64,000 nucleotides of DNA. Source: Rhodocyclaceae bacterium (GTDB lineage: Bacteria; Pseudomonadota; Gammaproteobacteria; Burkholderiales; Rhodocyclaceae). Positions 1,039-63,256 of the stretch are shown piece by piece. Numbering within the stretch: position 1 is the stretch's first letter; the number at the start of each line of letters is the position of its first letter. The stretch lies in NCBI GenBank assembly GCA_013791905.1, contig VMSX01000010.1, positions 124,001 to 188,000 of the forward strand, read 5' to 3'. Both the position numbers and the translations under genes were made by a program. The notes under the pieces are model-generated. The model did not search any database, had not been told where the DNA came from, and saw only the letters and a list, made by a program, of their open reading frames with translations.

Positions 1039-3492
1039 TCAACTGTTCCAGCCGGGCACCGGTTCGGCGTTGATGCGTGCAGCGACCTGGGCAAATTCCT
1101 CGGCCTTCACCGGCCGGGAGAACAGGTATCCCTGACCATAAGCGCAACCCATCCGCCGCAGAATATCGAGTTGCGCCTGGGTTTCAATGCCTTCCGCAAT
1201 GACATGCAGGCCGAGGCTGCCGGCCATCGTGACGATGGCATTGACGAGCGCGCGGTCGCTGTTGTCCGCGCTCATGTCGCGGATGAATGACTTGTCGATC
1301 TTCACCGTATCGAGCGAGAAGCGCTTGAGATAAGACAGCGAGGAATAACCGGTACCGAAATCGTCGAGATAGATATGCACGCCGTCGGCACGCAGGCTGT
1401 CGATCCAGGTTTGGGCGATGCCGACGTTGTGCATCAGCACGCCCTCGGTGATTTCGATGGCGATGGCGCCGGCCGGCAGACCGTGCTGCTTGAGCAGCTC
1501 GGCTATCGCCGCAGGCGGCAGGGCGTCCGGAATCTGTCGCACCGAGACATTGACCGAGACATACAGATCGAGGCCGCTGCCGCGCCACGCAGCCGCCTGC
1601 CGGCAGGCCTCGCCCAGCACCATCAGGCCAATCTCGCCAATCAGGCCGATGTCCTCGGCGACCGGGATGAATACGTCCGGCGGCACCATGCCGCGCACCG
1701 GATGCGACCAGCGCAGCAGCGCCTCGGCGCCTACCATCCGGCCAGTGGCGAGCTCGACGACCGGTTGAAATACCAGATACAGTTCCCCGCTATCCACCGC
1801 ATGCCGCAGGTCATCCTCGATCCGGCGACGATGCTCGACGGCAGCCTGCTGGGCAGGATCGAAGTAGCACAAATTGCGACCGCCGGCAGCCTGTGCATTA
1901 TTGAGGGCCAACTCGCTGCTGCGTAACAGCCCCTGCAGATCGGCACCATCGGCGGGAAAGAACGCAATCCCGGCACTCGCGGAAATATCGATATGCTCCT
2001 GATTACCCGCCACCTCCACGTCATACGGCTGGCCAATCAACTGCAGCAACTGGCCGACGCGCGCACCGACCGTCGTGCGCGCCTGTTCGCCCGCGAGCAA
2101 GAGCACGAATTCGTCGCCACCAATCCGCGCCACGCGATCCCCGGGCTCCAACATCTTGTGGATGCGTTCCGCAACCCGCAGCAGCAACTGGTCGCCCACC
2201 GGGAAACCCATGGCATCGTTGACGCGTCTGAAGCCATCGAGATCGACCATCACGAGGGCAAACGACGGTGTATCGAGGCTGATGTCGGACAAGGCATTTT
2301 GCAGTCCGGCGCGATTGGCAAATCCGGTCAAGGCATCAGTAACGGCAAGCCGGCGCGCCGAGATTTCCTCGCTGCGGCGCTGCGTCACATCGGTGACGAT
2401 GCCCTGCACACTGCCGTTGCCCAGCGGCGTCACCGCCACATGCAGCCAACGCTCGTCGTTGCGCCTCCCGACGAGCAGAAAGTCATCCTCCAGCGTGCCG
2501 TTATCCGCGGCATCGAGACTATTGCGCAACAAGGCCTGCAACTGCCCGGGTTCGCGCCAGCCCGGCTCGGTGAGCCGGCGGCCGGCGGTTTCCCTGCGCC
2601 GTGACAGCCAGGTCAAGGTGGCGAAGGCCAGATTGAATGATTCCAGTCGGCCATCATGGTCGGCAACGAAAATACCTGAGGCGGCGTTTTCGAAGAGATC
2701 CTGATATTTGCGCTGATCGATCACCTTCTGACGCAGCAGATCACTCTCAATGCCAATGGTCGCCACCAGACGTGCAGTGAGATTATTGATGTCGCCCACC
2801 AACCGGCCAAGCTCGGTGCGCTCGTGGCTTTCGGGAACGGCGAGGCGCTCGCCCCCGCTGGCATTGAGCTGGTGCAAGCGGTCTGAGATCGCCTTGATCG
2901 GCCGCACCACCAGAAACAACATTGCTGCCGCAGCTGCCGCAATGACCAGGGCCAGCTGACCGGCCAGGAGCAGACTGATGAAGCGGGCAGCACCCGCCAT
3001 ATGGGCGTCGATGACATCCTGATCGGCATCGAGCCAGATTTCGCCGACGGCTTCGTGCGGGGTGAAGGGGGAATACAGTTGACGCTTGACTGATGGGAGA
3101 ATGATCTTGCGGGGCGCCGTCCCATCAGTCCCACGGGGATTTCCTTCGGTCACGCCGATTTTTTGCTGCACGCGCTCGGCGCGCGCCAGTGTGCGCGCCT
3201 TGGTGCGGTCCTGGCCGTGTATCGTTACCCGCAACACCTCGCTGTTGCGCAGCAAGCCTTGCGCGACTTCATTCGCCAACTGCTCGTCACCCACAAAGGC
3301 GGCCACGGTTGCCGTGCTCTCGACCGTATCGAGCAGCTCATCAAGTTTGAGCGATGCCTGCTGGTACGCGCGGTCTTCGACCACCCGGCTCACCCACATG
3401 CTTGAAGCCCCACCCATCAGCAGGGCGATGCCCACCACCGCCATCAGGCTGCGGGCGAGAATGCCATGCCACCAGTGCGTTTGACGGCTCAT
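1039..3492 (-). CDS. membrane sensor with HAMP, PAS, GGDEF and EAL domains
   Basis: An 817-residue c-di-GMP enzyme. A transmembrane helix near residues 13-35 and a second near 175-200 enclose a periplasmic sensor region of CHASE8-like character. HAMP, PAS (about 265-375), GGDEF and EAL domains follow. The GGDEF motif is intact (RIGGDEF near 457), but the residues before it are EPGD, so the RxxD product-inhibition site is missing. The EAL domain keeps EALLRW (near 588), DDFGTGYSSL, KIDKSFI and AEGIE, so phosphodiesterase activity is plausible. Residues 111-126 of the periplasmic part are encoded by an expanded family-A repeat. The gene starts 6 bases after the stop of the phosphate-binding-like gene, so porin, binding protein and signalling enzyme look like one operon. 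Confidence 0.92.
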   Translation of the reverse strand: MSRQTHWWHGILARSLMAVVGIALLMGGASSMWVSRVVEDRAYQQASLKLDELLDTVESTATVAAFVGDEQLANEVAQGLLRNSEVLRVTIHGQDRTKARTLARAERVQQKIGVTEGNPRGTDGTAPRKIILPSVKRQLYSPFTPHEAVGEIWLDADQDVIDAHMAGAARFISLLLAGQLALVIAAAAAAMLFLVVRPIKAISDRLHQLNASGGERLAVPESHERTELGRLVGDINNLTARLVATIGIESDLLRQKVIDQRKYQDLFENAASGIFVADHDGRLESFNLAFATLTWLSRRRETAGRRLTEPGWREPGQLQALLRNSLDAADNGTLEDDFLLVGRRNDERWLHVAVTPLGNGSVQGIVTDVTQRRSEEISARRLAVTDALTGFANRAGLQNALSDISLDTPSFALVMVDLDGFRRVNDAMGFPVGDQLLLRVAERIHKMLEPGDRVARIGGDEFVLLLAGEQARTTVGARVGQLLQLIGQPYDVEVAGNQEHIDISASAGIAFFPADGADLQGLLRSSELALNNAQAAGGRNLCYFDPAQQAAVEHRRRIEDDLRHAVDSGELYLVFQPVVELATGRMVGAEALLRWSHPVRGMVPPDVFIPVAEDIGLIGEIGLMVLGEACRQAAAWRGSGLDLYVSVNVSVRQIPDALPPAAIAELLKQHGLPAGAIAIEITEGVLMHNVGIAQTWIDSLRADGVHIYLDDFGTGYSSLSYLKRFSLDTVKIDKSFIRDMSADNSDRALVNAIVTMAGSLGLHVIAEGIETQAQLDILRRMGCAYGQGYLFSRPVKAEEFAQVAARINAEPVPGWNS
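3115..3162 (-). repeat. family-A repeat, expanded 48-nt copy inside the GGDEF/EAL gene
   Basis: The two ends match the 24-nt family-A unit (CGCCGTCCC at one end, CGCCGA plus a T run at the other). A 24-nt palindromic insert containing CCCACGGGGA separates them. Read with the gene it encodes KIGVTEGNPRGTDGTA in the same codon phase as most other coding copies. It lies in the periplasmic sensor region. Confidence 0.85.
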
Positions 3493-3498
3493 GCCCGA

Positions 3499-3924
3499 CT
3501 ATTCGCCCAGGTCATACACCACCCGCACCCGCATGTCCGCCTGGCTGCGCTCGACATAGGCCAGCGCACCGGGGTGGGCGGCAACATAATGCAAGGCGCT
3601 CTCTACATTTTCGGCCAGATGCGGAGGGCGTGTCCTGCCCGAAAATATCAGACGCGCCCAGTAGGCGTTGATCTCGGCCAGCGTCTTGCCCACCAGCCGC
3701 CGATAGAAACGCGTCTTCAGTTCGTTGTCACCCATCAGATCGATGGGCTCGGCAGCGATGCCGGAAACCAGACGGCGGTAGCGCCCCAGATAGATGTTGA
3801 TGACTTCTTCCTGCGACAGACGCTCGATGCCGCTCTTCGGGTTGACGACTACAACCAGATCTGCGGCCGCCAGCGGCGCCAGCAGCATCAGGCAGAGGAA
3901 ACAGAATAGCTTGCGCAGAGCCAT
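3499..3924 (-). CDS. periplasmic phosphate-binding-like (PBP) small protein
   Basis: A 141-residue exported protein with signal peptide MALRKLFCFLCLMLLAPLAA, then DLVVVVNPKSGIERLSQEEVINIYLGRY and FYRRLVGKTLAEINAYW. These are typical of short solute-binding proteins related to the phosphate ABC transporter component PstS (SGI..LS..EV..IYLG). The start at 3924 is chosen because it gives the signal peptide and sits 4 bases after the porin stop; the frame is open further upstream but would overlap the porin. No ABC permease or ATPase is adjacent. The gene is instead followed at once by the GGDEF/EAL gene, so a ligand-sensing partner role for that enzyme is an inference. Confidence 0.8.
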   Translation of the reverse strand: MALRKLFCFLCLMLLAPLAAADLVVVVNPKSGIERLSQEEVINIYLGRYRRLVSGIAAEPIDLMGDNELKTRFYRRLVGKTLAEINAYWARLIFSGRTRPPHLAENVESALHYVAAHPGALAYVERSQADMRVRVVYDLGE

Positions 3925-3928
3925 GGCG

Positions 3929-5239: not shown

Positions 5240-5290
5240 CGCCGTCTCGCCAGTCCCGGAAAGGGGATTCCCGGCGGTCACGCCGAATTT
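5240..5290 (-). repeat. family-A repeat, expanded 51-nt intergenic copy
   Basis: The ends match the family-A unit (CGCCGTCTCGCCAG and CGCCGAATTT) around a 27-nt palindromic insert containing GGGGATTCCC. It lies between the porin gene and the small gene at 5317-5676, about 25 bases beyond the stop of the latter. Confidence 0.8.
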
Positions 5291-10416: not shown

Positions 10417-10440
10417 CGCCGTCCCACCAGCGCCGACTTT
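10417..10440 (-). repeat. family-A repeat, 24-nt copy in the fumarase-retropepsin spacer
   Basis: It differs from the family consensus at one position (CCCACCAG instead of CCCGCCAG). It ends 16 bases before the ATG of the retropepsin gene, occupying the place where its ribosome-binding site would lie. Confidence 0.85.
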
Positions 10441-10952: not shown

Positions 10953-10976
10953 CGCCGACCCACCAGCGCCGACTTT
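10953..10976 (-). repeat. family-A repeat, 24-nt copy after the retropepsin gene
   Basis: Two mismatches to the family consensus (CGCCGACCCACCAG then CGCCGACTTT). It begins 14 bases after the TGA of the retropepsin gene and lies 17 bases before a family-B element. Confidence 0.8.
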
Positions 10977-18698: not shown

Positions 18699-18722
18699 AA
18701 AGTCGGCGCTGGCTATACGGCG
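18699..18722 (+). repeat. family-A repeat, 24-nt degenerate copy
   Basis: AAAGTCGGCGCTGGC, then TAT where the consensus has GGG, then ACGGCG. It ends 3 bases before a family-B hairpin, in the same spacer as a family-C repeat. Confidence 0.75.
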
Positions 18723-21421: not shown

Positions 21422-21444
21422 GCCCGGATTAACATGAAAGAACA

Positions 21445-21589
21445 GCTTTTGCGCCGGGCCGCCCCAAGCAAAAGCGGCACGCGGCGCCAGCCGCAACCCA
21501 CGCCCACGCCAACGCGGAGCACCCCGTAACAAACGAGCGTCAGCGAGCCGTTTGGAACCCCCCGCGAGGGGGGCGAAGGGGGGCGGGCC
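21445..21589 (+). repeat. family-B element 5 (stem GCTTTTGC)
   Basis: GCTTTTGC (21445-21452), the invariant loop (21453-21467) and GCAAAAGC (21468-21475). GGCACGCGGCGCCAGCCGCAA, CCCCGTAACAAACGAGCG and the tail CCCCCCGCGAGGGGGG follow. The tail abuts the stop of the minus-strand LysR gene; the head points to alr. Confidence 0.9.
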
Positions 21590-43601: not shown

Positions 43602-43625
43602 AAAGTCGGCGCTGGCGGGACGGCG
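43602..43625 (+). repeat. family-A repeat, exact 24-nt intergenic copy
   Basis: All 24 positions identical to the copies inside alr, rnfG, recC and parC. It lies between the divergently placed PEP-CTERM terminator and the EamA start, so identity here cannot be due to protein conservation. Confidence 0.9.
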
Positions 43626-46404: not shown

Positions 46405-48420
46405 ATGAAGCAGACTTACGACGAATCATCCTTCCGCGTCCTGAAGGGACTGGAACCCGTGCGCGAGCGGCCCGGGATGTACACCCGCACCGACTCGCCG
46501 GCCCACATCATCCAGGAAGTCATCGACAACGCCGCCGACGAGGCGCTGGCCGGCTTTGCCAAGCACCTGCATGTGACGGTGGAGAAGGATGGCGCAATCA
46601 CGGTGGCGGACGACGGCCGCGGCATTCCGGTCGGCCTGCATCCCGAAGAAAAGATTCCCGTCGTCGTGCTCGCCTTCATGCGCCTGCACGCCGGCGGCAA
46701 GTTCGACAAGCAGATCGGCAACGGCGCCTATGCGTTTTCTGGCGGGCTGCACGGCGTCGGCGTGGCGGTGACCAATGCGCTGTCGCTGAGCGTGGAAGTG
46801 GAAGTACGGCGCGAAGGCAAGATCCATGCGGTGACGTTTTCCGAAGGCGGCGAGAAGGTGTCGGCGCTGGAAACCCGCGGCACTTGCGGCCGGCAGACCG
46901 GCACCCGCGTGCGTGTGGTTCCCGACCCGAAATATTTCTATGCGCCCAGGGTGCCGCAGGCCGAACTCGAACACCTGCTGCGCTCGAAGGCCGTGCTGCT
47001 GCCCGGCGTGCAGGTGACGCTCGAAGTCGAACAGGCCGATGGCAGCATGTTGGCGAAAACCTGGCGCTACCCGGAAGGTCTGGGCGGCTATCTGCGCGAA
47101 CTGGCCGGCGAAGACAGCGACGAAGCGACCGCGGCGGCGCCGATCTACGCCGCCGAGAATTACGCCGGCGGCGATCACGAAAGCTTTGCCGAGGGCGAAG
47201 GCGCGGCCTGGGCGCTGGGCTGGTGGGCAGATGGCGGTTCGAACATTCCCCACGAGTCCTATGTCAATCTGATCCCGACCACCGCCGGCGGCACCCACGA
47301 AGCGGGCTTGCGCGCCGGAGTTTTCGAGGCGCTGAAGACCTTCATCGAACACCATGCGCTGCTGCCGCGCGGCGTGAAGTTGCAGCAGGAAGATGCCTGC
47401 GCGCGCATGGGCTATGTGCTCTCGGCGCGCATCCTCGATCCGCAGTTCCAGGGCCAGGTCAAAGAGAAGCTCAATTCGCGCGAGGCGGTGAAGCTGGTCG
47501 CCGGCATGGTGCGCGACCCCCTCGAAATCTGGCTCAACCAGCATGTCGAGGCCGGCAAGGCGATTGCCGAGCTGGCGATCCGGCAGGCCTTGAGCCGCCA
47601 GAAGAATGCCCAGAAGGTGGAAAAGAGAAAGCAGTCGGGCGTGGCGGTGCTGCCGGGCAAGCTGTCGGACTGCGAATCGACCAGCATTGCCGAAAATGAG
47701 TTGTTCCTTGTCGAGGGCGATTCGGCCGGCGGCTCGGCCAAGATGGCCCGCAACCGCGAAACGCAGGCGATTCTGCCCTTGCGCGGCAAGGTGCAGAATT
47801 CGTGGGAAATCGAGGTCAATCGCCTGTTCGCCAACAACGAAATTCACGACATCGCCGTGGCATTAGGAGTGGATCCTCACGGATCCACGGGCATCGACCC
47901 GCACAACGCCGCCGACAACCCCGACCTCGCCAACCTGCGCTATGGCAAGGTCGTCATCATGGCGGACGCCGACGTCGATGGCGCGCACATCCAGACGCTG
48001 CTGCTCACCCTCTTCTACCGCCACTTCCCGGCGCTGATCGCGCGCGGCCACGTGTTCATCGCCCAGCCGCCGCTGTATCGCGTCGACGTGCCGGCGCAGG
48101 GCAAGAAACGGCCGGCCAAGCGGCTGTATGCGCTCGACGAGGGCGAACTGGCGGCCATCAAGGACCGACTGGCCAAGGAAGGTTTCTCGCCCGACAAGAT
48201 CGAGGTCGGCCGCTTCAAGGGGCTGGGCGAGATGAACCCCGAGCAATTGCGCGAAACCGCCATGGACCCGGCGACGCGCCGCGTGCTTCCGGTCGCCGAG
48301 CGGCCGGAAGCTCAGGCGGAAACCCTGAAACTCTTCAACCTGCTGATGGGCAAGGGCGAAGCATCCGCGCGGCGCGCCTGGATGGAAGCCCGTGGCCATC
48401 TCGTGGAGGCCGACCTATGA
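46405..48420 (+). CDS. parE: DNA topoisomerase IV subunit B
   Basis: A 671-residue GHKL ATPase subunit of topoisomerase IV, which decatenates chromosomes: [59 protein letters not shown], and the TOPRIM motifs [12 protein letters not shown] and [15 protein letters not shown]. The start at 46405 gives the standard [13 protein letters not shown]. An in-frame insertion with a second IDPH motif follows GVDPH near residue 490 ([14 protein letters not shown]), built on a GTGGATCC/GGATCCAC inverted repeat at 47871-47890. The end overlaps parC as ATGA. Confidence 0.95.
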
Positions 48421-50864
48421 GCCACGAAACTCCTGATCTGTTCGACGACATCCCGGACGTACCGCCGCCTCCCCCCGCTGTCGAAAACATGGGCGACGTG
48501 CCGCCTGGCGCCGTCCCAAATGGACCGGGCGAACCGCCTGACGGCGGTCCGCGTGCGCCGACTTTTGACGACGGCACGCTGCCGCTCGATACCTATGCCG
48601 AGCGCGCCTATCTTGCCTATGCGATGAGCGTGGTGAAGTCGCGCGCCCTGCCCCAGGTCGAGGACGGCATGAAGCCGGTGCAGCGCCGCATCCTGCATGC
48701 GATGAACGAAATGCGCCTGGCCGCCACCGCCAAGCACGTCAAGAGCGCGCGCGTGGTGGGCGACGTGATCGGCAAGTTTCACCCGCACGGCGACAGCAGC
48801 ATCTACGACGCCATGGTGCGCGTGGCGCAGGACTTCTCGCTGCGCTATCCGCTCGTAGACGGCCAGGGCAATTTCGGTTCGCGCGACGGCGACGGCGCGG
48901 CGGCGATGCGTTACACCGAGTGCCGCCTGACGCCGATTGCCGAACTGCTGCTGACGGAAATCGATCGCGGCACGGTGGACTTCGTGCCCAACTACGACGG
49001 CACGCTGACCGAGCCATCATTATTGCCTGCCCGCCTGCCGTTTGTGCTGCTGAACGGCGCATCGGGCATCGCCGTCGGCATGGCGACGGAAATTCCGCCG
49101 CACAACCTGCGCGAAGTGGCTGATGCGCTCAAGCTGCTGATCAGGAAACCGGCCGCCCCGCTCGAAGAAGTGCTTACCGTGCTGCCCGGGCCGGACTTCC
49201 CCGGCGGCGGCCAACTCATCGCGCCCGCCGCCGACATTCGCGCGGCCTATGCCGGCGGTCGCGGCAGCCTGCGCATGCGCTGCCGCTGGCGCATCGAGGA
49301 ACTGGCGCGCGGCCAGTGGCGCGTCATCGTGTATGAACTGCCGCATGGCGTTTCTACTGCGCATGTCCTTTCGGAAATCGAGGCCGTCACCAATCCGCAG
49401 CCGCGCACCGGCAAGAAGGACATTTCGCAGGAGCAGAAGAACCTCAAGCAGGTGATGCTCGGCGTGCTGGATGCCGTGCGCGACGAATCGAACGAGAAGG
49501 ACCCCGTGCGCATCGTGCTGGAACCGAAGAGTTCGCGCGTGCCGCAGGACGAATTCATGGCCGTGTTGCTGGCGCGCACCAGCCTTGAAGCCAACGTCTC
49601 GCTCAACATGACGATGATCGGCACCGATGGCCGACCGGCGCAGAAATCGCTGCTGACCATCCTGCACGAGTGGATCGCCTTCCGCCACGTCACGGTCGAG
49701 CGGCGCAGCAAACACCGGCTGAATGAGGTCGAACGCCGCCTGCATATTCTCGAAGGCCGCATGACGGCCTACCTCTCCATCGACAAGATCATCAAGACTA
49801 TCCGCGCGGCCGACGAGCCGAAAGCGGAATTGATGGCCAAGTTCAATCTGTCGGAGATCCAGGCCGAGGACATCCTCGAGATTCGCCTGCGCCAGCTGGC
49901 GCGCCTTGAAGGCATCAAGATCGAACAGGAGCAGCAGGCGCTGGCCACAGAGGCCAAGGAACTGCGCCGCGTGCTGGAAGACCGGGGCGCACTGACCAAG
50001 CTGGTCGTCAAGGAAATTACCGAGGATGCGAAGAAGTATGGCGACGCGCGCCGCACGCTGATCGAATCCGTTGCCCCCGTCAGCCTCGCCGAGGTTGCCA
50101 TTCCCGACGAGCCGGTGACGGTGATCCTCTCGGAAAACGGCTGGGTGCGCTCGCGCCAGGGACACGGCATCGACCCCGCCAGCATCGCCTACAAGAGCGG
50201 CGACAGCGCCCTCCTGGTGATGGAAGCGCGCACCGTCTGGCCGCTGGTGATCATCGACACCCACGGCCGCGCTTACAGCGTGCGCGTCGCCGACCTGCCG
50301 GGCGGGCGCGGCGATGGCGCACCCATCAGCACCTTCGTCGAATTTCAGGAGGGTGGCAAACTCGCCCAGGCGCTTACCGACGCCGCAGATGCGCAGTATC
50401 TCTTCGCCAATTCGGGCGGTTACGGCTTCATCGCCAGCATTGGCGACCTGGTTTCGCGCAACCGCGCCGGCAAGGCATTCATGACGCTTGAAAAGGGCGA
50501 GTTGCCGCTGGTTCCGGCAAAAGTCGGCGCTGGCGGGACGGCGCTAGCCGGAGCCACCGCCAATATGGGGACGGCGGCGGCGATCTCGCAGGCCGGCCGC
50601 CTGCTGGTTTTCCCGGTGGCCGAAATGAAGACGATGAGCAAGGGTCGTGGCCTGATCATCCAGAGCCTCGGCCCCAAGGAGCAACTCGTGGCGGTCGCCG
50701 TCGGCGATGGCGCGGCATTCACCGTGACCGGCATCGGCCGCGGCGGCAAAGCCACCGAATACCGGATGACCACCAAGGAACTCGCCAGCCATTGCGGCAG
50801 TCGTGCCCGCAAGGGACCGCCGATCGCATCGAAGATAAAACCGACCGGCCTGGTGGCTGGATAG
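48417..50864 (+). CDS. parC: DNA topoisomerase IV subunit A
   Basis: An 815-residue DNA-cleavage subunit. [32 protein letters not shown], the quinolone-resistance region [34 protein letters not shown], and the active-site Tyr in [11 protein letters not shown] are visible. Residues about 31-49 of a Pro-rich N-terminal extension ([20 protein letters not shown]) come from an expanded family-A repeat, and residues 702-709 (KVGAGGTA) in the C-terminal DNA-wrapping domain from an exact copy. The pairing with a ParE-type partner favours ParC over GyrA. ATG overlaps the parE stop. Confidence 0.95.
48509..48565 (-). repeat. family-A repeat, expanded 57-nt copy near the parC 5' end
   Basis: The ends are CGCCGTCCC and GCGCCGACTTT, with 33 extra bases in the middle holding the palindrome ACCGCCTGACGGCGGT. 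It is translated from the opposite strand relative to most coding copies, as AVPNGPGE...RAPTF. Confidence 0.82.
50520..50543 (+). repeat. family-A repeat, exact 24-nt copy in the parC 3' part
   Basis: Identical at all 24 positions to the alr, rnfG, recC and 43602 copies. Encodes KVGAGGTA in the ParC C-terminal domain. Confidence 0.9.
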
Positions 50865-51339: not shown

Positions 51340-52960
51340 TGCCGAGCTTATCGCAAAGACCGGACATGCGTCCGGCGCGGTTTTCGCACGCCGCTTGCAA
51401 TACGGCTTCTGACGACCACAGGCTGAGGTGCTGACGCGCCCGGGTAACCCCTGTGTAAACCAGTTCGCGCGTCACCACCGGCGAAATCGATGCGGGCAAG
51501 GCCAGCAGAACTCTTGCGAATTCCGAACCCTGTGATTTATGCACCGTCATTGCCCAGGCCACTTCCCAAGTCGGCAGGCGGGCGAAGGGAATCCAGCGCG
51601 GCGCAGCGGATGTGCCATCCCCTTTGCCAGCGAAACAGGCCTTGAGGCTGCCATCGACCGGGTCGGGCAAGGCCAGGCCAATATCGCCGTTGTAAAGTCG
51701 CAGCAGCGGGTCGTTACGCACCACCATGACCGGCATGCCCGGCTGGGCCAGCATCGCGTCGGGCGGCGTCAGCGCCCGGTTGATCGCGGCAACATCCTGC
51801 CGGTGCGCACAGAGCACGCGGAAGCGACTGAACTGTTCGAAGAGTTCGCCCACCGGCAATCCGGCTGCCACGGCATCACGATAGGCTTGATAACCCTCCC
51901 GCACCGCGGACGCCAATGTCTGCGGGGAAAATTGCGGCTGCCAGTCAAGGTCGTCCGTGGCAGCTTTCAATTGCTCGATGGCGCCCGGCGCATCCCCCAT
52001 CCGCAGGCACTCGGCCAACCGGCCGATGCCGCTCGTGCCGGCAAAGCGGAAACTGGCTGTCAGTGTCGTCACACATGGCGCCAGCCGCTCGCTGGCGCAC
52101 AGGTCGGCGAAGACCGCGCCGGCCTCGACGGCGGCCAACTGATCGCGGTCGCCGAGCAGGATCAGGCGGGCGGCGGTGGGCAGCGCAGCCAGCAGATGCG
52201 CCATCAGCGACAGGTCGATCATCGAGGCTTCGTCGATCACCAGCACATCCACCGTTAGCGGCCGCTCCCGGCAGTGATAAAAACCGCTGCCATCGGCGCG
52301 CATGCCCAGCAGGCGATGCAGAGTCATTGCGCTGTGCGCCGGAGCTGACACACCCGTTGCACCGAGCGCTTCGGTCATGCGCGCTGCTGCCTTGCCAGTA
52401 GGCGCGGCCAGGGCGATGCGCAGCGGCGCGGCGCCGGCTTGAGCGGCCTGCTGGTGCAGCAAGGCGATCAGCCGCGCCAGCGTGGTTGTCTTGCCGGTAC
52501 CCGGACCACCCGAGATCAGGGCCAGCCGATTGACCAGCCCGATGCGGGCCGCCGCGCGCTGGCCGGCATCGGCGAATTGGTTTTCCAGCGCGGCTTCCAT
52601 ATCCGCACTGAGGGCTTCCGGAGCCGTTGCCCGCGCCAGCAGATCCAGCGCGACCTGCTGCTCATAGGCCCAGTAGCGCCGCAGGCTCAGCCGCTGGCCA
52701 TCCCAGACCAGCGGGGTCAGATCATCGGCGCCACCGACAATGGCCATGTCCGGCAGGCGGGCGCGCAGCCCGGCGCGCTGCCCGCCATCCATCTCGCCCG
52801 CCCAGGGTCCCCAGCCCGCCTCCTGATCGAGGTCGGCGCAGACATGGCCATCCTGCGTGGCCTGACAGGCCAGCGCCACGGCCCGCCGCGCAGCGGGATC
52901 GTCACCGCCCAGATAGCGCGACAGATGGGCAACGATGGGCGGGATGGCTAGCTTGGCCAT
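51254..52960 (-). CDS. recD: exodeoxyribonuclease V subunit alpha
   Basis: A 568-residue SF1B 5'-3' helicase: Walker A (LISGGPGTGKTTTLARLIALL), DEASMIDLSLMAHLL, LLGDRDQLAAVEAGAVFADL, TASFRF and the C-terminal AWAMTVHKSQGSEFARVLLALP...ELVYTGVTRAR. A natural RecD end would fall near SGLCDKLG. The last ~27 residues (TAGPPQGKAARGASRKPLQSEPGAAP) and the stop come from a family-B element. It starts inside the recB end (13-base overlap), so recC-recB-recD form one operon. Confidence 0.95.
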   Translation of the reverse strand: MAKLAIPPIVAHLSRYLGGDDPAARRAVALACQATQDGHVCADLDQEAGWGPWAGEMDGGQRAGLRARLPDMAIVGGADDLTPLVWDGQRLSLRRYWAYEQQVALDLLARATAPEALSADMEAALENQFADAGQRAAARIGLVNRLALISGGPGTGKTTTLARLIALLHQQAAQAGAAPLRIALAAPTGKAAARMTEALGATGVSAPAHSAMTLHRLLGMRADGSGFYHCRERPLTVDVLVIDEASMIDLSLMAHLLAALPTAARLILLGDRDQLAAVEAGAVFADLCASERLAPCVTTLTASFRFAGTSGIGRLAECLRMGDAPGAIEQLKAATDDLDWQPQFSPQTLASAVREGYQAYRDAVAAGLPVGELFEQFSRFRVLCAHRQDVAAINRALTPPDAMLAQPGMPVMVVRNDPLLRLYNGDIGLALPDPVDGSLKACFAGKGDGTSAAPRWIPFARLPTWEVAWAMTVHKSQGSEFARVLLALPASISPVVTRELVYTGVTRARQHLSLWSSEAVLQAACENRAGRMSGLCDKLGSLTAGPPQGKAARGASRKPLQSEPGAAP

Positions 52961-55900
52961 GTGTGCACATCCAATAAGGCATCGTCCGGCCGCGTGAAGA
53001 ACACGCCGGCTTGGCTGCCTGGCCCCATGCCGCGCAGGAACAGATAGAACACGCCGCCGAAGCTTTCAGTCCAGTCGAGATCGGGCTCGCGCAGCAGCAG
53101 CGCGCGCTTCAGGGCCGCCGCATAAATCCGCAGTTGCAGGTCGTAGCGATGCATCCGCATCACATCTGCCAGACGTGGTGGCGTGTAGTCCTCGACCTGC
53201 TCGCCCAGCCAGTTCGATTTGTAATCGACGATGTACCAGCGCCCGCCATGCCGAAACACCAGATCGATGAAACCCTTCATGTAGCCGGCCTGCGCTGCTG
53301 CCGATCCCAGCGGGTAGGTGAACTCCAGTTCGATCAGGCGTTCGCCGCGCGCCACTTGCGCCAGGCACAGGCCAGCGGCATTCAACGGCGTGGCGACGAC
53401 ATCGGCCACCAGGCGCTCGAGCACCGGCCGCCATTCGAGCGGGTAGGCAAATTCCTCCAGCACGGCGACGGCAACGGGCCCGATTGCGGCAGTGGCCTGG
53501 AAGTCAATGCGCTCGAGCAGCGCATGCAGGCAACTGCCGGCGCGCGCGCCACGCGGGAAATCCATAAAGCGAGAGAAAGTCGGCGTGACCGAAGGGAATC
53601 CCCGTGGGACTGGCGGGATGAAATGCCCCGCATGGGGTACGGTGGGTAGAGCAAGCGGTGAGATATTGGCCACGAGTGCATCGTGATCCGGAATCTCCTC
53701 GTTGCCCAGTCGTGCCGCCAGGCTGGAAAAACTGCTGACGCGCCACGGCGCACGAATCGTCCCGACGAAGGGGCGTGCCACCAGTTCAGGCGCAGCGGCC
53801 ACGAGTGCCACCATGACAGGGGCGTCATCCACCGGCAAGGGTGTCACCGCCATCGCCCCATCCAGTCCGCTAGCCAGGGCGACGATCTCCGCCTGCAGGG
53901 CGGCCTCATCAAGCTTGCCCAGTCTGTCGGCGAGTTGTGCGCGTGGGTCGTCAGTTTCGCCAGCAGCGGGCGTGCGTGGCGCGAACAAGAGCCAGGCGAG
54001 TGGCGAACGTTCGCATTGATTCACCTTGCCCCAGGCGACGATGCAGCGATGCTCGGCACGCGTCAGCGCGACATAGGCGAGGCGCAATTCTTCGGCGGCG
54101 TCTTCGAGATCAGCCTGCTGGCGCAGTGCATCGATTTGTGCGGAGCCGAAGTCGAGACAGGAATGATTATCGGCATGGGCAAATACCGGCCAGCGCTTGG
54201 CATCGAATCCCGGACCGTCCCACAGGAAGGGACAGTAGACGATGGGATATTGGAGGCCTTTGGCGGCGTGAATGGTGACGATGCGCACCAGTTGCGCGTC
54301 GCTTTCCAGACGCAGTTGTGCTTCCTCGGATTCGCTGGCTTCACGCGAACGCGCCAGATGGCGGGCCAGGCCTTCGATGTCGAGGGCGCCGTCATGTTCG
54401 GCCCCTTGCAACAATTCGGCGAGATGGCGGTAATTCGTCAGGCGCCGCTCGCCATCAGGGCGCGCCAGAATGCGCGCGACAACGCCTTCGCGCCGCAGCA
54501 GGCGACGCCACATCGCCATGAAGCCGCGATCGCGATACAGCAGCAAGTCGTCGTGGAAGCAGCCCTGCCGCTCGCTCCAGGCGCGCTCGTCGGCGGCCCA
54601 GACGGCCAGTTGCGCCGCATCGGCGCCGAGCAGCACCGTCGCCAGCGCCGCCCGTACCAGCCCTTCGCGCGTCGGGGCGGCCACTGCCAGCAGCACGCGT
54701 TCGACCTCCTCGGCTTCGTCGCTGTGCCAGACACTGCCGCCACCCAAGGTGACGCTGGCAATGCCGCGCCGCGCCAGGGCTTGCTTCACCAGTTCGCCCT
54801 GCTGATGCTTGCGCACCAGCACGGCAATGTCGCCGCCCGCCAGCGCCCGCGTGCCAAGCTGCGCCCGGCCTGTCGCCGCCAATCCCAGCAGTCGAGCAAT
54901 ATCGGCGGCAACCGCGCTGGCCGCCAGCGGCTGCGCCACTTCCTTGGTTAAGCCCTTCTCCCCTTCCGGTTGCGTCATCGTCCACAGAGTGAGCGCCGCC
55001 GCATTGCCGGTGTCATCATCGATGCGACAGGAGGCGCGGGCCATCTGCGCCGGCTGGGCCGGTTCAAAAGACAAACCCTCAAGCAGGAAGGGATGCGGAC
55101 GCGCGAACAAGGCATTCACGACGGTCAGCAATGGCGCATCGGAGCGCCGGTTTTCCAGCAGCGCATAACCGGCGTCGGCCTGCTGCCGAGCAGACAGATA
55201 GGCAAACACGTCCGCGCCGCGAAAGCCGTAGATCGCCTGCTTGGGGTCGCCGACAAACACCAGCGGATGACCGTCCTGGCCGAACTTGCCACCGAAGATG
55301 CCGAAGAAGATCTCGAGTTGCAGCGGGTCGGTGTCCTGGAATTCGTCGATCAGCGCCGCCCGGTAGCGGTTGCGCAGCGCGCCGGCGAGCGCAGCGCCGG
55401 AGGTGCCCTGCAGCGCATGGGCCAGATCGGCGAGCAGGTCGTCATAGGCCATCTGGCCGCTGCGGCGCTTTCTGGCCGTCAGCTCGGCACGCGCCGTGAG
55501 CAGGAAGTCATGCAGCAGGCGGCGCGTGTCATTTTCATACGCGGCGCCGAGATTCTCGGCCGCCAGCAGGAGTACATCGACCGCATCAAAGAACGCATGT
55601 TCGGCTGGCGGGCTGGACTTGGTGATTTTCTCGGTGATCTTCGCCAGCCCGAAAAATGCCATGGCCTCGGGCAAGGGGAAAGGCGCGTCTGCAGCGGCGA
55701 AGATCTGGCCGAGCAGATCGATTCTGGGCTGCATTTTTTTCGGGGAATAAACACCCTGATTCAGTTTGGCAGCGGCCAGCCAGGCACAGATCGTCGCGGC
55801 ATCGCTTTGCCAGAGCTTGCGCGCCGCAGTGAAGGCGGCGGCAAAGGCTTGTTCTGCCGCATGCCGGTCTGTGGACACTGGCGCCAGTGTCTGCGCGTCG

Positions 55901-56490
55901 ATGCGACCAAGATGCGAGCGCACGCGGCGCACCAGGCCATCCGGCCCACCCAATTCACCCAGCAGCCAGCGCGCCCAGGGCGCGGCAGCCGTCGCCAATG
56001 TCTTGCGCCAGACATCGCGGGCCACACCGGCGAGCAGGTCCTGCTGGTCGGCGAGCAGTTCTCGCTCAAAAGGCTGCCCGGCCTCGAAGGCCGTTTCGGT
56101 CAGCGCGCGCTGGCAAAAGCTGTGAATGGTGAAGATGGCGGCTTCGTCGAAACTTTCGATGGCGAGGCGCAGCCGTGCAGCGGCTGGCGTGGGGTCGTAG
56201 CGGGCGAGCAGCGCCTGCAGGTTTTCATCATCGGTCGTGCCCGCCTCAAACGCGGCGAGCGCCTGCAGCAAGCGGTTACGGATGCGCCCGCGCAGCTCGC
56301 CGGTGGCGGCGCGTGTATAGGTGACGACGAGGATTTGGCCGATCTCGAGTTGCTGTTCGAGCAACAGGCGCAACACCAGCGCGGTGATCGTCCAGGTCTT
56401 GCCCGTGCCGGCGCCGGCCTCGACCAGGCTGATGCCGTCGAGCACGACGTCGAAGGGACCGGCGAGAGGCGTGAAGCGCCGTTCAGCCAT
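52948..56490 (-). CDS. recB: exodeoxyribonuclease V subunit beta
   Basis: An 1180-residue 3'-5' helicase and nuclease of the RecBCD double-strand-break repair enzyme: Walker A (LVEAGAGTGKTWTITALVLRLLLE), VVTYTRAATGELRGRI, QDTDPLQLEIFFGIF, LVFVGDPKQAIYGFRGADVFAYL, IHAAKGLQYPIVYCPF, and the nuclease motif GFIDLVFRHGGRWYIVDYKSNWLG near 1087. Residues about 956-971 (PPVPRGFPSVTPTFSRF) come from an expanded family-A repeat in the linker before the nuclease domain. It overlaps recC by 8 bases. Confidence 0.96.
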   Translation of the reverse strand: MAERRFTPLAGPFDVVLDGISLVEAGAGTGKTWTITALVLRLLLEQQLEIGQILVVTYTRAATGELRGRIRNRLLQALAAFEAGTTDDENLQALLARYDPTPAAARLRLAIESFDEAAIFTIHSFCQRALTETAFEAGQPFERELLADQQDLLAGVARDVWRKTLATAAAPWARWLLGELGGPDGLVRRVRSHLGRIDAQTLAPVSTDRHAAEQAFAAAFTAARKLWQSDAATICAWLAAAKLNQGVYSPKKMQPRIDLLGQIFAAADAPFPLPEAMAFFGLAKITEKITKSSPPAEHAFFDAVDVLLLAAENLGAAYENDTRRLLHDFLLTARAELTARKRRSGQMAYDDLLADLAHALQGTSGAALAGALRNRYRAALIDEFQDTDPLQLEIFFGIFGGKFGQDGHPLVFVGDPKQAIYGFRGADVFAYLSARQQADAGYALLENRRSDAPLLTVVNALFARPHPFLLEGLSFEPAQPAQMARASCRIDDDTGNAAALTLWTMTQPEGEKGLTKEVAQPLAASAVAADIARLLGLAATGRAQLGTRALAGGDIAVLVRKHQQGELVKQALARRGIASVTLGGGSVWHSDEAEEVERVLLAVAAPTREGLVRAALATVLLGADAAQLAVWAADERAWSERQGCFHDDLLLYRDRGFMAMWRRLLRREGVVARILARPDGERRLTNYRHLAELLQGAEHDGALDIEGLARHLARSREASESEEAQLRLESDAQLVRIVTIHAAKGLQYPIVYCPFLWDGPGFDAKRWPVFAHADNHSCLDFGSAQIDALRQQADLEDAAEELRLAYVALTRAEHRCIVAWGKVNQCERSPLAWLLFAPRTPAAGETDDPRAQLADRLGKLDEAALQAEIVALASGLDGAMAVTPLPVDDAPVMVALVAAAPELVARPFVGTIRAPWRVSSFSSLAARLGNEEIPDHDALVANISPLALPTVPHAGHFIPPVPRGFPSVTPTFSRFMDFPRGARAGSCLHALLERIDFQATAAIGPVAVAVLEEFAYPLEWRPVLERLVADVVATPLNAAGLCLAQVARGERLIELEFTYPLGSAAAQAGYMKGFIDLVFRHGGRWYIVDYKSNWLGEQVEDYTPPRLADVMRMHRYDLQLRIYAAALKRALLLREPDLDWTESFGGVFYLFLRGMGPGSQAGVFFTRPDDALLDVHTWPS
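53576..53623 (+). repeat. family-A repeat, expanded 48-nt copy inside recB
   Basis: AAAGTCGGCG, a 24-nt insert (containing GGGAATCCCCGTGGGA) almost identical to the one at 3115-3162, then CTGGCGGGA. The last bases diverge. recB reads the opposite strand, giving PPVPRGFPSVTPTF, the same phase as the parC N-terminal copy. Confidence 0.83.
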
Positions 56491-59400
56491 CGCCGACTTT
56501 CTCGGTCATCGCCGCGCGCAGCGGCCCGAAGACCTGTGCCGCCAGTTGCTGGAATGCTGCGCCAAGGGGATCGTCGGACCGGTCGCGCAAGGCCAGCCGC
56601 AGATAGGCATCGTCGCGCTCACCGGGAGTCTTCTGGAAGCTGTTGCCGAACCAGGCATTGCGCCAGCTCGACTTGCCTTCCAGCCAGGCCCAGGCCGTCT
56701 TTGGATAGAACGGCAGCGGTGCGCTTTGGCCTTGTCGATACAGCGCCAGCAGTTCAGCCAGTGCGGCGGCGGCCCCGTCGAGCGGTGGCAACAGCGTCAC
56801 GCCATTGTTGGCCAGCAGCACGCTCTGCTTCACCACGCCGGGCGGCGCGGCAAGCTGCAACAACAGATGGTCTATCCACAAGCGCAACAGGTCCTGCGGG
56901 CGGGTGCTGCCGAAACGCAGGCGCCACAGGCCTTGCGCCGTGATGCGTTCGAGGCGGCCGCTCAGCATTGTCTGCTCAGCGTCGAAGCGCACTTCGATTG
57001 GCGGCAAGGCGGCGGCCGTGGCCCAGGCCTGGGCGGATTGCCATAACGCGCTGGCTTCAGCGTGTGCCGCCGCACTGGCAATGCCGCCCACCACACCATG
57101 CGGCAGCCAGCCTTTCGCGTGCAGCAGGCGCGTGGTTTCATCAAGCGTCGCGCCTGCCTTGAGGCCGGCGAAATGCGCTTCGCGCAGACGGTAATTATCG
57201 AGATGGTTGGTCACGAAGGGTTCGTGAATTTCCAGCAACTCTTCGCTTTCCTCGAGATGGATGCCCAGCTGCTCGCGCAGATAGAAACGCACCGGGTGGT
57301 CGAAAAAGCGCTGCAGGCGCTGCAGTTCAAGCTCCTCGCCAGCGGCGGGTAATAGCGCTGGCACTGGCATTTCGCCGAGGAATGGACTGGCGCTGCGTGC
57401 TGTGCGGGTGGCGCCAGCTGCACAACTTGCGCTGCAGTGGTCGCCGTCGAAGCTGAACAGCGCGGGCGCCACCTGATCGAAATACACCGGACTGAAGGGC
57501 TGCAAGGGATGTTGCACGATCAGTTCCGCGACGGCCTTGCCGGTCATCGTCGCCAGTGTGTCGAGCAATTCGGCCAGCGGCGCAGCGGGGGGAAATTCGA
57601 CATTGCTGCGCGGGTCGCGGCCGGTGTAGGTGACAACAAGGGAATCTTTCGCGCACAGCAGCGTTTCCAGGAACGCATAACGTTCCTCGCCACGATGGTT
57701 GCGGTCACCCGGCCGGGGATGCCGCGCGATGAGATCGAAGCTGACCGGTGCTGCAGGGCGTGGCCAGGCGCCGTCGTTCATGCCGACCAGACACAATACT
57801 CGCGCCGGCAGCGGCCGGCCCGGCTGTAGCGCGGCGATTGTCGCCGCGCCCGAAGCAAAGGCGCGCGCCGGTGCCCGCTCAGTCAGCGCGGCGTCAAGTT
57901 CGCGCAGCATGACGGCCAGCGGCAGCCGGACTTCGCAGCGCGCAGTGCGCGCGTGGGTCGCCAGTTCGGCAAGCGCGGCGCGAATGCGTTGTGCTTCGTC
58001 TTCTTCTGATTCTGTCGGAGCGAGAAAGCGTTCCTGGGCATCGTTGAGAATGCCAACCCAATCAAGCGCCGTCCCGCCAGCGCCGACTTTCTGCACCAGC
58101 ACGAACAAGGCTTCGGCATAGTCGGCAAAGCGGCCCAGCAATTCGGCACGGCCACCCTCGATGCCGGCTACGGGCAACACCTCGTCATACAGGCGTTCCG
58201 GCACATCGGGCATTGCCACGCCGAGCAGCAAGCGCTGCAAGCCGGCGCGCCAGGTATGGGTGTCTTCCGCCGGCAAGCCACGCTGCTGGCGCGCGCGGCC
58301 ATCCAGGCCCCAGCGGATGCCCGCTGTGGCGACCCAGTCGCGCAGCAGCGGCAGTTCGCTTTCGGCCAGGTCAAAAGCACGCCGCACCGCCGGCTCTTCC
58401 AGCAGCCCCATGACGCTTTCGGCGTCGAGTTCGCTTTCTGCTACCGCGCACAGGCGACGCAACGCACGCCATAGTGGTGCGGCAACCAGCGGACGATCAG
58501 CCACCACACAGGGAATCCGTCGCGCCGCAGGCGCATGCATCAGCACCGCCTCGATGGCCTGCGCATAGGTTTCGATATCCGGGGTGAGGATCAGGATATC
58601 CGCCGGATGCAGGTCAGGCATGGCTTCGAACAGGGCCAGCAGACGATCGTGCAACACTTCGGCCTCGCGCAGCGGACCGTGGCAGGCATGGATCTGCAGC
58701 GAGGCGTCGGGGGGGATAGCGACACTGCTGTCGAGGTCGAGAATATCCCGCTGCAAGCAGCCCAACAATGTGGCTGACGCGGCAATAAAATAGTGATGCT
58801 CCTGGGTCGGCAGGCGCTCACCCGCCTCGGTCAGGCGGGCCATCGCATGCTGGCGTGACCGTCCCAGCGAGGCCAGCAGGGGATGGCCCGCTTCAATCAG
58901 TGCAGCTGTTTCGGGTTGGTCGATTTCCAGGCGCAACCGCACGCGCACCCGGTCGATGTCGCCCCAGTATTCGCGGCAGGGCGCCAGCACGAAGACATGC
59001 AGGTCGACCCATTCGGCCAGACCGAGGAACACCTCCCAGTAGAGCGCGGGCATCGACTCGACGGCAAACAGATTGATCCGCTGCGGCAGACGCGCCCGCG
59101 CACGCGGATCCCGCCGCAACTGCGCCATGAATCGTTCGCGCGGATGCTCGGCGGCCACTTCCGACAGCTCGCCGATCAGGGTACGCCACACACCCGCCTG
59201 CCAGATCTCGTCCGGCCCAAGTCCCAGCAGCTTGCCGGCGCCCCAGAATTCAAGCCAGTCGGGACGCTCGACCAGGTAACGATCAAACTGGGCAGCCAGC
59301 CGGCTGGCGAGTTCATACCGCTTGATGCCATCATCGTCAGCGAGGTAATGCTTCACCTGCGGTGCAGTGCTCTCGCCCAGCAAGCGCAGCAGACGCCATT

Positions 59401-59671
59401 GCATTGCCGTCCGCTCGAATGGATTGACCGCAGCCACTTCCGCCAGCACCCGGCCGAACAGATGCCAGACATAGGCAGCGGGAAACGGAAAGGCAATCTG
59501 CGTGGCGATGCCCAGTTCGTCGGCCAGCCGAAACCCCAGCCAGCGCGCTACAGCCGTGGCCGAGGTGACTACCTGTTCGGTTTCCAGCAAGGGCAGCGGC
59601 GCGGCGCGCAGCAGCGCCGCCTGCGCCATGGCCAGCGTGTCGGAACGATTGCTCAGATGAAGGTGCAGCAT
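56483..59671 (-). CDS. recC: exodeoxyribonuclease V subunit gamma
   Basis: A 1062-residue RecC: MLHLHLSNRSDTLAMAQAALL, ATAVARWLGFRLADELGIATQIAFPFPAAYVWHLFGRV, LPQRINLFAVESMPALYWEVFLGLAEWVDLHVFVLAPCREYWGDI, CHGPLREAEVLHDRLLALFE and LLCAKDSLVVTYTGRDPRSNVEFPPAAPLAELLDTL. It recognises Chi in the family. Residues 528-535 (KVGAGGTA) are encoded by an exact family-A copy. It is the first gene of the recCBD set, preceded by a family-B element beyond rplI. Confidence 0.94.
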   Translation of the reverse strand: MLHLHLSNRSDTLAMAQAALLRAAPLPLLETEQVVTSATAVARWLGFRLADELGIATQIAFPFPAAYVWHLFGRVLAEVAAVNPFERTAMQWRLLRLLGESTAPQVKHYLADDDGIKRYELASRLAAQFDRYLVERPDWLEFWGAGKLLGLGPDEIWQAGVWRTLIGELSEVAAEHPRERFMAQLRRDPRARARLPQRINLFAVESMPALYWEVFLGLAEWVDLHVFVLAPCREYWGDIDRVRVRLRLEIDQPETAALIEAGHPLLASLGRSRQHAMARLTEAGERLPTQEHHYFIAASATLLGCLQRDILDLDSSVAIPPDASLQIHACHGPLREAEVLHDRLLALFEAMPDLHPADILILTPDIETYAQAIEAVLMHAPAARRIPCVVADRPLVAAPLWRALRRLCAVAESELDAESVMGLLEEPAVRRAFDLAESELPLLRDWVATAGIRWGLDGRARQQRGLPAEDTHTWRAGLQRLLLGVAMPDVPERLYDEVLPVAGIEGGRAELLGRFADYAEALFVLVQKVGAGGTALDWVGILNDAQERFLAPTESEEDEAQRIRAALAELATHARTARCEVRLPLAVMLRELDAALTERAPARAFASGAATIAALQPGRPLPARVLCLVGMNDGAWPRPAAPVSFDLIARHPRPGDRNHRGEERYAFLETLLCAKDSLVVTYTGRDPRSNVEFPPAAPLAELLDTLATMTGKAVAELIVQHPLQPFSPVYFDQVAPALFSFDGDHCSASCAAGATRTARSASPFLGEMPVPALLPAAGEELELQRLQRFFDHPVRFYLREQLGIHLEESEELLEIHEPFVTNHLDNYRLREAHFAGLKAGATLDETTRLLHAKGWLPHGVVGGIASAAAHAEASALWQSAQAWATAAALPPIEVRFDAEQTMLSGRLERITAQGLWRLRFGSTRPQDLLRLWIDHLLLQLAAPPGVVKQSVLLANNGVTLLPPLDGAAAALAELLALYRQGQSAPLPFYPKTAWAWLEGKSSWRNAWFGNSFQKTPGERDDAYLRLALRDRSDDPLGAAFQQLAAQVFGPLRAAMTEKVGDG
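58067..58090 (-). repeat. family-A repeat, exact 24-nt copy inside recC
   Basis: All 24 positions identical to the alr, rnfG, parC and 43602 copies. Encodes KVGAGGTA between LFVLVQ and LDWVGILNDAQERFL. Confidence 0.9.
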
Positions 59672-59764
59672 GACAAGGCGATTCTAAGCCGGCAAGGACA
59701 GGTGCACGAAAAAAGGCCACCCGTAGGCAGCCCTTTTTCAACGCATGTGCTGACTTAAACCGCA

Positions 59765-59914
59765 GTCTTTCCGCCGGGCCGCCCCAAGGAAAGACGGCAC
59801 GCGGCGCCAGCCGCAACCCGCACCACAGCCCGAACTACGCGCCCCGTAACAAACGAGCGCAGCGAGCCACAGTCACCTCCCCCGCGAGGGGGAGGCCGGG
59901 AGGGGGCGGGACTT
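59765..59914 (+). repeat. family-B element 11 (stem GTCTTTCC)
   Basis: GTCTTTCC (59765-59772), the invariant loop (59773-59787) and GGAAAGAC (59788-59795), then GGCACGCGGCGCCAGCCGCAA, CCCCGTAACAAACGAGCGCA and the tail CCTCCCCCGCGAGGGGGAGG. The tail abuts the rplI stop; the head points to recC. Confidence 0.9.
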
Positions 59915-62675: not shown

Positions 62676-62716
62676 GACCGGAAATCGAATCAAGTAATCG
62701 ATAAAATACGCATTCT

Positions 62717-62792
62717 GCCCCCATAGCTCAGTGGATAGAGCACCTTCCTCCTAAGAAGGGGGTCGCACGTTCGATTCGTGCTGGGGGCGCCA
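62717..62792 (+). tRNA. tRNA-Arg (anticodon CCT)
   Basis: A 76-nt cloverleaf: acceptor GCCCCCA/TGGGGGC, D arm AGCTCAGTGGATAGAGC, anticodon arm CCTTC-CTCCTAA-GAAGG, T arm GCACG-TTCGATTC-GTGC, encoded CCA. Anticodon CCT reads AGG. GATAAAAT about 15 bases upstream may be a -10 element. Confidence 0.96.
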
Positions 62793-62830
62793 CACAACAC
62801 GGATGGGTGCCGGAGCTGACCGGTTTTGGC

Positions 62831-63256
62831 TTACTTTACGCGTGTCAGGTGACCGCCGCGACGGGTCGGCGAATCCGGCTTGTCGGTTTCCGTTTCCGCT
62901 TCCACATGCGCCGTCTCGCCAGCGCCGACTGCTTCGCCATCCACATGCTCTGGGATGGCCTCGAATGCCATTCCTTGTCCGTTCTCGCGCGCGTAGATGG
63001 CCAGCACGGCGGATACTGGCACGGCTACCGAGAAAGATGCACCGCTGAAGCGGGCCTGAAAAGTGATCTCGTCGTTGCCGATTTGCAGTTGGTGAGTGGC
63101 TTCGGCACCGACGTTGAGGACGATTTGCCCGTCCTTGACGAACTCGCGTGGCACGCGAGTTCGCTCATCGACCTGTACGGCAATGTGGGGAGAAAAACCC
63201 TCGTCCGTGCACCATTCATGGATTGCACGGATAAGGTATGGCTTGGTGGACACCAT
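62831..63256 (-). CDS. sspB: ClpXP protease specificity-enhancing factor SspB
   Basis: A 141-residue SspB: MVSTKPYLIRAIHEWCTDEGFSPHIAVQVDERTRVPREFVKDGQIVLNVGAEATHQLQIGNDEITFQARFSGASFSVAVPVSAVLAIYARENGQGMAF. A disordered acidic linker and a C-terminal GGHLTRVK follow, corresponding to the ClpX-docking tail. It delivers ssrA-tagged and other substrates to ClpXP. The linker contains a diverged family-A copy. It lies directly after sspA as usual. Confidence 0.95.
   Translation of the reverse strand: MVSTKPYLIRAIHEWCTDEGFSPHIAVQVDERTRVPREFVKDGQIVLNVGAEATHQLQIGNDEITFQARFSGASFSVAVPVSAVLAIYARENGQGMAFEAIPEHVDGEAVGAGETAHVEAETETDKPDSPTRRGGHLTRVK
62909..62932 (-). repeat. family-A repeat, diverged copy inside sspB
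   Basis: Three mismatches to the 24-nt consensus (CGCCGTCTCGCCAGCGCCGA then CTGC). Encodes AVGAGETA (residues 109-116) in the common codon phase, in the flexible linker between SspB core and ClpX-docking tail. Confidence 0.75.

Follow-up and report, generated by a model that had tools for sequence, protein, structure and literature searches.

The 64,000-nt window analysed here (positions 124,001 to 188,000 of contig VMSX01000010.1, assembly GCA_013791905.1, from a Rhodocyclaceae bacterium) carries many copies of a 24-nt word, CGCCGTCCCGCCAGCGCCGACTTT, in unrelated genes and in the spacers between them. We propose, with a probability of about 0.58, that this 24-mer is a genome-wide recognition motif which works like a DNA uptake sequence (DUS) in a clade of the Rhodocyclaceae. 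A first-pass annotation of the window, made from the letters and their open reading frames, had described a repeat that is open in all six frames and occurs some 16 times, and had likened it to the Rickettsia palindromic elements (RPEs), which sit in frame within genes. The repeat turned out to be real and far larger than claimed, while the likeness to inserted elements did not survive comparison with orthologues for most copies.

At up to three mismatches, CGCCGTCCCGCCAGCGCCGACTTT has 14 matches in the window and none in 100 shuffles of it. The genome of the window (G000; 3.64 Mb in 30 contigs) holds 499 copies at this threshold, 250 on the plus and 249 on the minus strand, against none for the reversed pattern that served as control. 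Occurrence in many copies, far above chance, is what an uptake sequence would show, and the genome-wide count suggested by the first-pass annotation bears the repeat out. A closed genome of the same survey, G017, has 181 and 185 copies on its two strands. Chi and KOPS are names for strand-oriented motifs; a motif of that kind is rejected on the lack of strand bias in both genomes, where copies were counted per strand and replichores were not mapped.

The shape of the motif was read from 464 kb of G000, comprising the window and 20 further stretches. The mismatch histogram falls into two parts, with 81 copies at zero to four mismatches, four at five, and the level of the reversed control from six to seven upwards. 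Across the 81 copies the information runs from position 1 to position 24 or 25; the pentamer CCGAC (positions 17-21) is constant except for one letter, and positions 7-10 are the most variable. The resulting consensus, [C/T]GCCGT nnn GCCAGCGCCGACTTT, is sharpest at CCGAC. The 23 intergenic copies are likewise variable at positions 7-10 (consensus 0.70-0.83), so the tolerance at these positions belongs to the motif and not to the protein code alone. No hairpin was found in the 24-mer (folding z +0.98 against shuffles), and Rfam at gathering thresholds returned two tRNAs and nothing else; a hairpin or RNA element is rejected on these two results.

The distribution of the motif was surveyed in 121 genomes chosen by kinship to G000, which is itself included. 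Among the same-genus genomes, 18 of 19 contain 184-660 copies; the exception, G006, has none, and no copy at up to four mismatches is present in 306 kb of it. In other genera of the Rhodocyclaceae-like family, high numbers occur in G019 (510), G026 (738), G055 (620), and G063 (194), while G040 and G062 hold 35 and 15 copies of the G000-type 24-mer and the remaining family genomes 0-8. An order-level draw of 399 genomes gave 22 with any match at up to one mismatch and four with more than five, all four within the family. G062, which represents a fifth other genus, reveals 206 matches at up to three mismatches to a dialect of its own, CCGTnnCnCCAGCGTCGACTTT, with T replacing C at position 17, and in G017 position 1 is T in 79 of 94 copies; the motif thus has lineage-specific dialects. 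When genomes are ranked by identity of ParE to that of G000, the 12 that are motif-rich, G062 being included for its dialect, lie at 80-100% and the 13 motif-poor ones, including G006, at 52-79%. This ranking includes the 25 of 30 genomes with a full-length ParE match and leaves out G040, G022, G033, and G083, which have none, as well as G027, a motif-free genome with two ParE fragments of 77% and 81% identity. It suggests that the motif is a trait of one clade, a statement based on ranking rather than on a tree. G006 is labelled as the same genus, yet its ParE (78%) is farther from that of G000 than those of the motif-rich other genera (80-85%). Some motif-poor genomes (G040, G083, G106, and G153) contain a few near-exact copies, some of them clustered on one contig, as if imported.

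Whether copies were inserted or changed in place was judged against motif-free orthologues, with G006 as the motif-free relative. In the protein comparison, an orthologue was called motif-free at eight or more mismatches within the fetched DNA, and tblastn matches below 45% identity were dropped, some of those kept being weak; 12 copies of G000 and 15 of G017 could be compared. The local length differs by at most four residues in 19 of these 27 coding copies (by none in nine), and the motif-free protein is more than four residues longer in two. At the DNA level, with flanks below 0.62 identity dropped, 109 copies had usable orthologues and 42 had a motif-free one, some of these being the same site in different genomes. 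The net length change is nil in 12 and stays within 9 nt in 16 more, giving 28 of 42 at up to 9 nt; six show other changes. Both comparisons are in agreement with substitution in place, next to an insertion-like minority.

Individual proteins illustrate the pattern. The copy in Alr leaves the protein at the same length as in G006, which reads PPQSGLGSIATLWG at the site, and one residue longer than the three solved racemases displayed. QueA reads LKVGAGETALFVTPGYRF with the motif and LRSGEDETALFIVPGYRF in G006, and PEPCK of G017 reads VQGKVGARETALGWMP as against a motif-free VHGRVPARETALGWMP in an alignment of 88% identity; biotin-ligase-family and epimerase-family proteins of G017 show the same in-place pattern as PEPCK. 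As aligned, the motif overwrites native residues in QueA, PEPCK, and Alr, and most of the comparable coding copies appear to have arisen letter by letter in place, not by insertion. The in-frame insertion envisaged by the first-pass annotation fails for most comparable copies in view of these lengths and of the missing hairpin. Insertion of a mobile 24-nt element is rejected by the length data for most comparable coding copies, and is retained for a few of them as well as for expanded and composite copies.

Once present, copies tend to stay. The five closest genomes (G000, G008, G009, G010, and G015) were compared with one another at a flank identity of at least 0.75, and in 64 of 65 such comparisons a copy is shared at 20 or more of the 24 positions. 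Comparisons with farther relatives are two-peaked, splitting into kept and lost: at flank identities of 0.5-0.6, at least 22 of 24 positions are kept in 40% of 122 comparisons, which are not mutually independent, where a binomial of equal mean would give 5%. From this set, 51 of 1064 comparisons had been dropped for a flank identity below 0.5. The mean motif identity remains at 0.79-0.83 while flank identity falls from 0.85 to 0.5; the mean alone is weak evidence because the query copies were picked for nearness to the consensus, and the two-peaked distribution is the stronger. The first-pass annotation had held that orthologues from unrelated genera carrying the same nucleotides at each site would speak against its reading. 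Same-site copies do occur in other species of the genus, but what is shared there is the motif itself, frequently better kept than its flanks.

According to our own gene model, 58 of the 81 copies in the G000 sample are coding, compared with 88.6% of the DNA, and copy density is 0.43 per kb in intergenic and 0.14 per kb in genic sequence. The coding copies use the frames unevenly (27, 12, 10, 8, 1, and 0; p 2e-9), with KVGAGGTA as the commonest reading, and under a looser frame assignment G000 and G017 each make use of all six. The first-pass statement that the exact 24-mer is free of stops in every frame is correct by reading the sequence, and the three-mismatch variant at 56477 does overlap the stop codon of recC. 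Equally, the earlier argument holds that a repeat identical at the DNA level across unrelated genes and spacers, and tolerated in several frames, goes beyond protein homology.

Longer forms exist beside the 24-mer. In derivatives of 48-51 nt, the motif halves flank TCCC(ACG or GAAAA)GGGGATTYCCTTCGGTCA; a 34-mer of this form has 35 matches at up to three mismatches in G000. An origin of the 24-mer by internal deletion of the 48-nt form is rejected as a general explanation, because the latter is present in 7 of 31 genomes and the 24-mer in 18 of 19 same-genus genomes. The 49-nt expanded form folds no better than shuffles (z -0.21). Some expanded copies have another left end, TGCGGGGCATTTCATCCCGCCAG, in a REP-like mosaic (REP, repetitive extragenic palindromic). 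G017 also contains 78-nt composites (L301:13589, L302:8003, and L310:14062) that combine the motif with inverted and partial versions of it, copies lying at a distance of 54 nt; the composite of L310 forms a strong hairpin (z -4.77 against shuffles). A further composite, in recC of G010 (L081:3536), is a 45-nt in-frame expansion that is absent in G009. The expanded copies and a minority of the other sites are insertion-like.

In-place origin, presence on both strands, lack of a hairpin, and long retention, taken together, call for a protein that reads this sequence specifically and for a process by which matches are favoured; uptake sequences are the known example. We infer that the reader may be an uptake receptor and that uptake with recombination may be the driver. 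A competence DNA receptor, most likely a type IV minor pilin, would prefer motif-bearing DNA; alleles brought nearer to the motif by point mutation would be over-represented in transforming DNA and would spread by homologous recombination. Through such preferred uptake and recombination of motif-like alleles, the motif would grow in place, on either strand and in several frames, wherever a protein or spacer can accommodate it. For the Pasteurellaceae, a minor pilin has been argued to be the receptor on the basis of structure prediction (PMC12616744). Of 41 genomes tested, 40 have ComEC and 38 have ComP_DUS-type pilins; for ComP_DUS, 14 control genomes gave no match.

Several observations weigh against an uptake function. 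ComEC and ComP_DUS pilins also occur in motif-free relatives, for which reason no receptor is singled out: by presence and absence, both fail to separate motif-rich from motif-free genomes. No ComP_DUS match was obtained in G062, which has the dialect, nor in the motif-rich G012 and G015. Uptake sequences reportedly show an orientation bias and an intragenic bias (PMC2346458); here neither the orientation bias (36 antisense and 22 sense copies, p 0.087) nor an excess at gene ends (p 0.14, 53 copies) is significant. With 24 nt and 0.15-0.235 copies per kb, the motif is longer and sparser than the uptake sequences given in PMC2346458 and PMC3630211. In 6 of the 27 coding copies the motif-free protein is more than four residues shorter, and 8 of the 42 DNA comparisons are insertion-like (18-45 nt); ParC of G006 lacks 12 residues opposite the motif, and the solved ParC is shorter there too. 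To these are added the interdependence of the retention comparisons, the existence of expanded and composite copies, and the presence of motif copies in viral-binned contigs.

The even spacing of the copies is counted among the features in favour of an uptake sequence, but evenness beyond random is rather expected of chromosome-compacting sites (PMC1939737). Across 400 contiguous kb of G017, the distances between 94 sites have a coefficient of variation (CV) of 0.66 versus 0.83-1.20 at random, and none of 2000 random placements is as even; in the G000 stretches, evenness is marginal (CV 0.72, P 0.039), the null in each case being random placement without a coding constraint. A nucleoid or segregation protein might bind the motif at roughly regular distances, and the sites would then be made and kept by selection for an organised chromosome, in line with the in-place origin, the retention, and a column profile like that of a recognition site. 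Such an architectural or chromosome-maintenance role appears unlikely in view of the missing strand bias and of the copies in viral-binned contigs, some of them after attC-like ends, where it would not be expected.

We consider it quite unlikely that a miniature palindromic family, similar to REPs, miniature inverted-repeat transposable elements (MITEs), or RPEs, was inserted in frame and left the 24-mer as a short remnant. The expanded copies with their 34-mer matches, the 78-nt composites (one folding far better than shuffles), and the insertion-like DNA comparisons, including the recC expansion of G010, would find a ready explanation. Most motif-free orthologues, however, show little or no change in length, the residues match the native protein in QueA, PEPCK, and Alr, presence/absence turnover among close genomes is almost nil, dialects exist, and neither the 24-mer nor the 49-nt form folds better than shuffles. 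A mobile element is thus disfavoured for most of the coding copies compared. Overwriting templated by an oligonucleotide, e.g., a reverse-transcribed single strand that imprints the word on partly matching sites, would likewise change DNA in place without indels; we give it very little credence, no source locus or reverse transcriptase having been looked for, as the native residue may be retained at variable positions (E in QueA), which gradual mutation would predict.

Among known systems, the motif is closest to, and yet distinct from, the uptake sequences, whose reported length is 10-12 nt at approximately 1,500-6,000 copies per genome (PMC2346458, PMC3630211). With the DUS of the Neisseriaceae, as treated in these two sources, it shares a high copy number, occurrence on either strand and both within genes and between them, dialects, frame bias, and the lack of a general orientation bias along the genome. 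It differs from them in sequence, in length, and in number (184-738 copies), and most DUS dialects have a stop in one frame (PMC3630211), while the exact 24-mer is open in six. Dialects of the DUS have been described together with some relatives that lack an obvious uptake sequence (PMC3630211). Like the uptake signal sequences (USS) of the Pasteurellaceae, the motif is abundant in genes with one orientation commoner, though not significantly so here; unlike them, it has an unrelated sequence, another host family, greater length, and lower density. We do not class it as a DUS or USS itself because its consensus and length differ and its uptake role is putative: those elements have a consensus of 9-12 nt, and the 24-nt sequence is unlike the ones given in PMC2346458. 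RPEs resemble it as a single DNA word tolerated in frame in unrelated genes and in spacers, but are peptide-encoding insertions of about 150 bp (PMC10969869), whereas the 24-mer has no such palindrome and, among the copies compared, mostly adds no length, host proteins being lengthened by few copies and by the expanded ones. As for REPs and MITEs, the expanded and composite copies look inserted, and a hairpin is confined to the 78-nt composite, being absent from the 24-mer, which is mostly in place, and from the 49-nt form.

In the open-licence PMC literature, neither the motif strings nor a mention of 'DNA uptake sequence' together with Rhodocyclaceae was found; the papers cited here deal with uptake sequences of the Pasteurellaceae and Neisseriaceae, and within this literature a Rhodocyclaceae case would be new. 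It is conceivable, at somewhat less than even odds, that the Rhodocyclaceae clade is a third independent lineage with self-specific uptake, using a 24-nt label with dialects in hundreds of genes, and that some integron-like cassettes carry the label in their 5' leader and so travel with an uptake ticket. If true, such a third lineage, whose 24-nt motif is unrelated to the others and has dialects, would make it possible to test by what route these motifs begin (in-place drive), to what extent proteins yield to them, and if they keep the gene pools of uncultured bacteria in the environment apart; the motif would also provide a sequence handle for tracing DNA exchange in metagenomes.

The putative cassettes were encountered in the viral-binned contigs (L345-L464), where at least 120 stretches carry the motif, at 0.069 per kb beyond one anchor each. 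In L353, L376, L447, L460, and others, copies lie directly 3' of attC-like ends (GTTRRR), with a ribosome site and an ATG following; these attC calls were made from the GTTRRR end, by eye, and by fold rather than with a dedicated model. Among the matches listed, GTTRRR stands just upstream of 13 of 192 viral-binned copies and 2 of 299 host copies. Of ten chosen stop-to-stop frames across the motif, five gave matches to phage DNA methyltransferase families. By their position after attC-like ends, these copies would fit uptake tags on exchanged cassettes better than an architectural site. In plasmid and phage databases, 141 bases of alr as a query gave no match. A 30-mer query at E up to 1 returned seven records of each kind: those from plasmids covered 77% of its length or less, and among those from phages four reached 80-83% coverage at approximately 92% identity (E 0.2-0.6). 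None was full length, and both sets were taken as chance.

The copies of the window are listed in the table below. All places named in the first pass were recovered (40322 corresponding to 40323), among them the five exact copies at alr, rnfG, parC, recC, and the intergenic site 43602 as well as the four expanded copies, and those at 18172 and 56477 are additional. By our gene model, eight of the 14 copies are genic and six intergenic; three of the four expanded copies are genic, too. The inserts between the motif halves at 3115-3162, 5240-5290, and 53576-53623 measure 24 or 27 nt. The carriers include alr, parC, recC, and a recB-like gene, a listing rather than a statistic of gene classes; enrichment in genome-maintenance genes has been reported for uptake sequences (PMC2346458).

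Table. Copies of the 24-nt motif and its expanded forms in the 64,000-nt window (mm, mismatches)
Position	Strand	Form	Location	Remarks
3115-3162	+	expanded; motif halves, 24-nt insert	antisense in EAL/GGDEF gene 1039-3492	
5240-5290	+	expanded; motif halves, 27-nt insert	intergenic	
10417-10440	+	1 mm	intergenic	16 nt ahead of ATG of gene model at 10457
10953-10976	+	2 mm	intergenic	G008 matches 17/24 positions
18172-18195	+	3 mm	antisense in FtsX-like permease gene 16054-18564	reads NVGDGETA; several congeners have similar letters at the site
18699-18722	-	3 mm	intergenic	
20459-20482	+	exact	antisense in alr 20333-21496	reads KVGAGGTA
26143-26166	+	exact	antisense in FMN-binding (rnfG-like) gene 25696-26349	
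29575-29598	+	3 mm	antisense in PFOR gene 29314-34236	motif-like letters nearby in opposite orientation in G015, G010, G004, G013, G005
40323-40346	-	3 mm	intergenic	
43602-43625	-	exact	intergenic	
44770-44793	+	2 mm	intergenic	
48509-48565	+	expanded; left part, insert, right part	N-terminal region of parC	about 20 residues missing in G006
50520-50543	-	exact	antisense in parC 48417-50864	12-residue gap opposite in G006 (insertion-like or variable loop)
53576-53623	-	expanded; motif halves, insert, alternative left end TTTCATCCCGCCAG	sense in recB-like gene 52948-56490	
56477-56500	+	3 mm	across overlapping recC end / recB-like gene start	
58067-58090	+	exact	antisense in recC 56483-59671	
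62909-62932	+	3 mm	antisense in sspB 62831-63256	

Two further repeats were observed in the window. The short repeat CCGCCGGGCCGCCCCAAGCAAA adjoins two motif copies (near 10980 and 18720) and occurs at other G000 loci as well, its most frequent 14-mer reaching 13 counts in 154 kb of loci from that genome. At 59762-59910 lies a dispersed intergenic repeat of about 150 bp, which is 85-91% identical among its many copies in G000, G008, G009, and G015.

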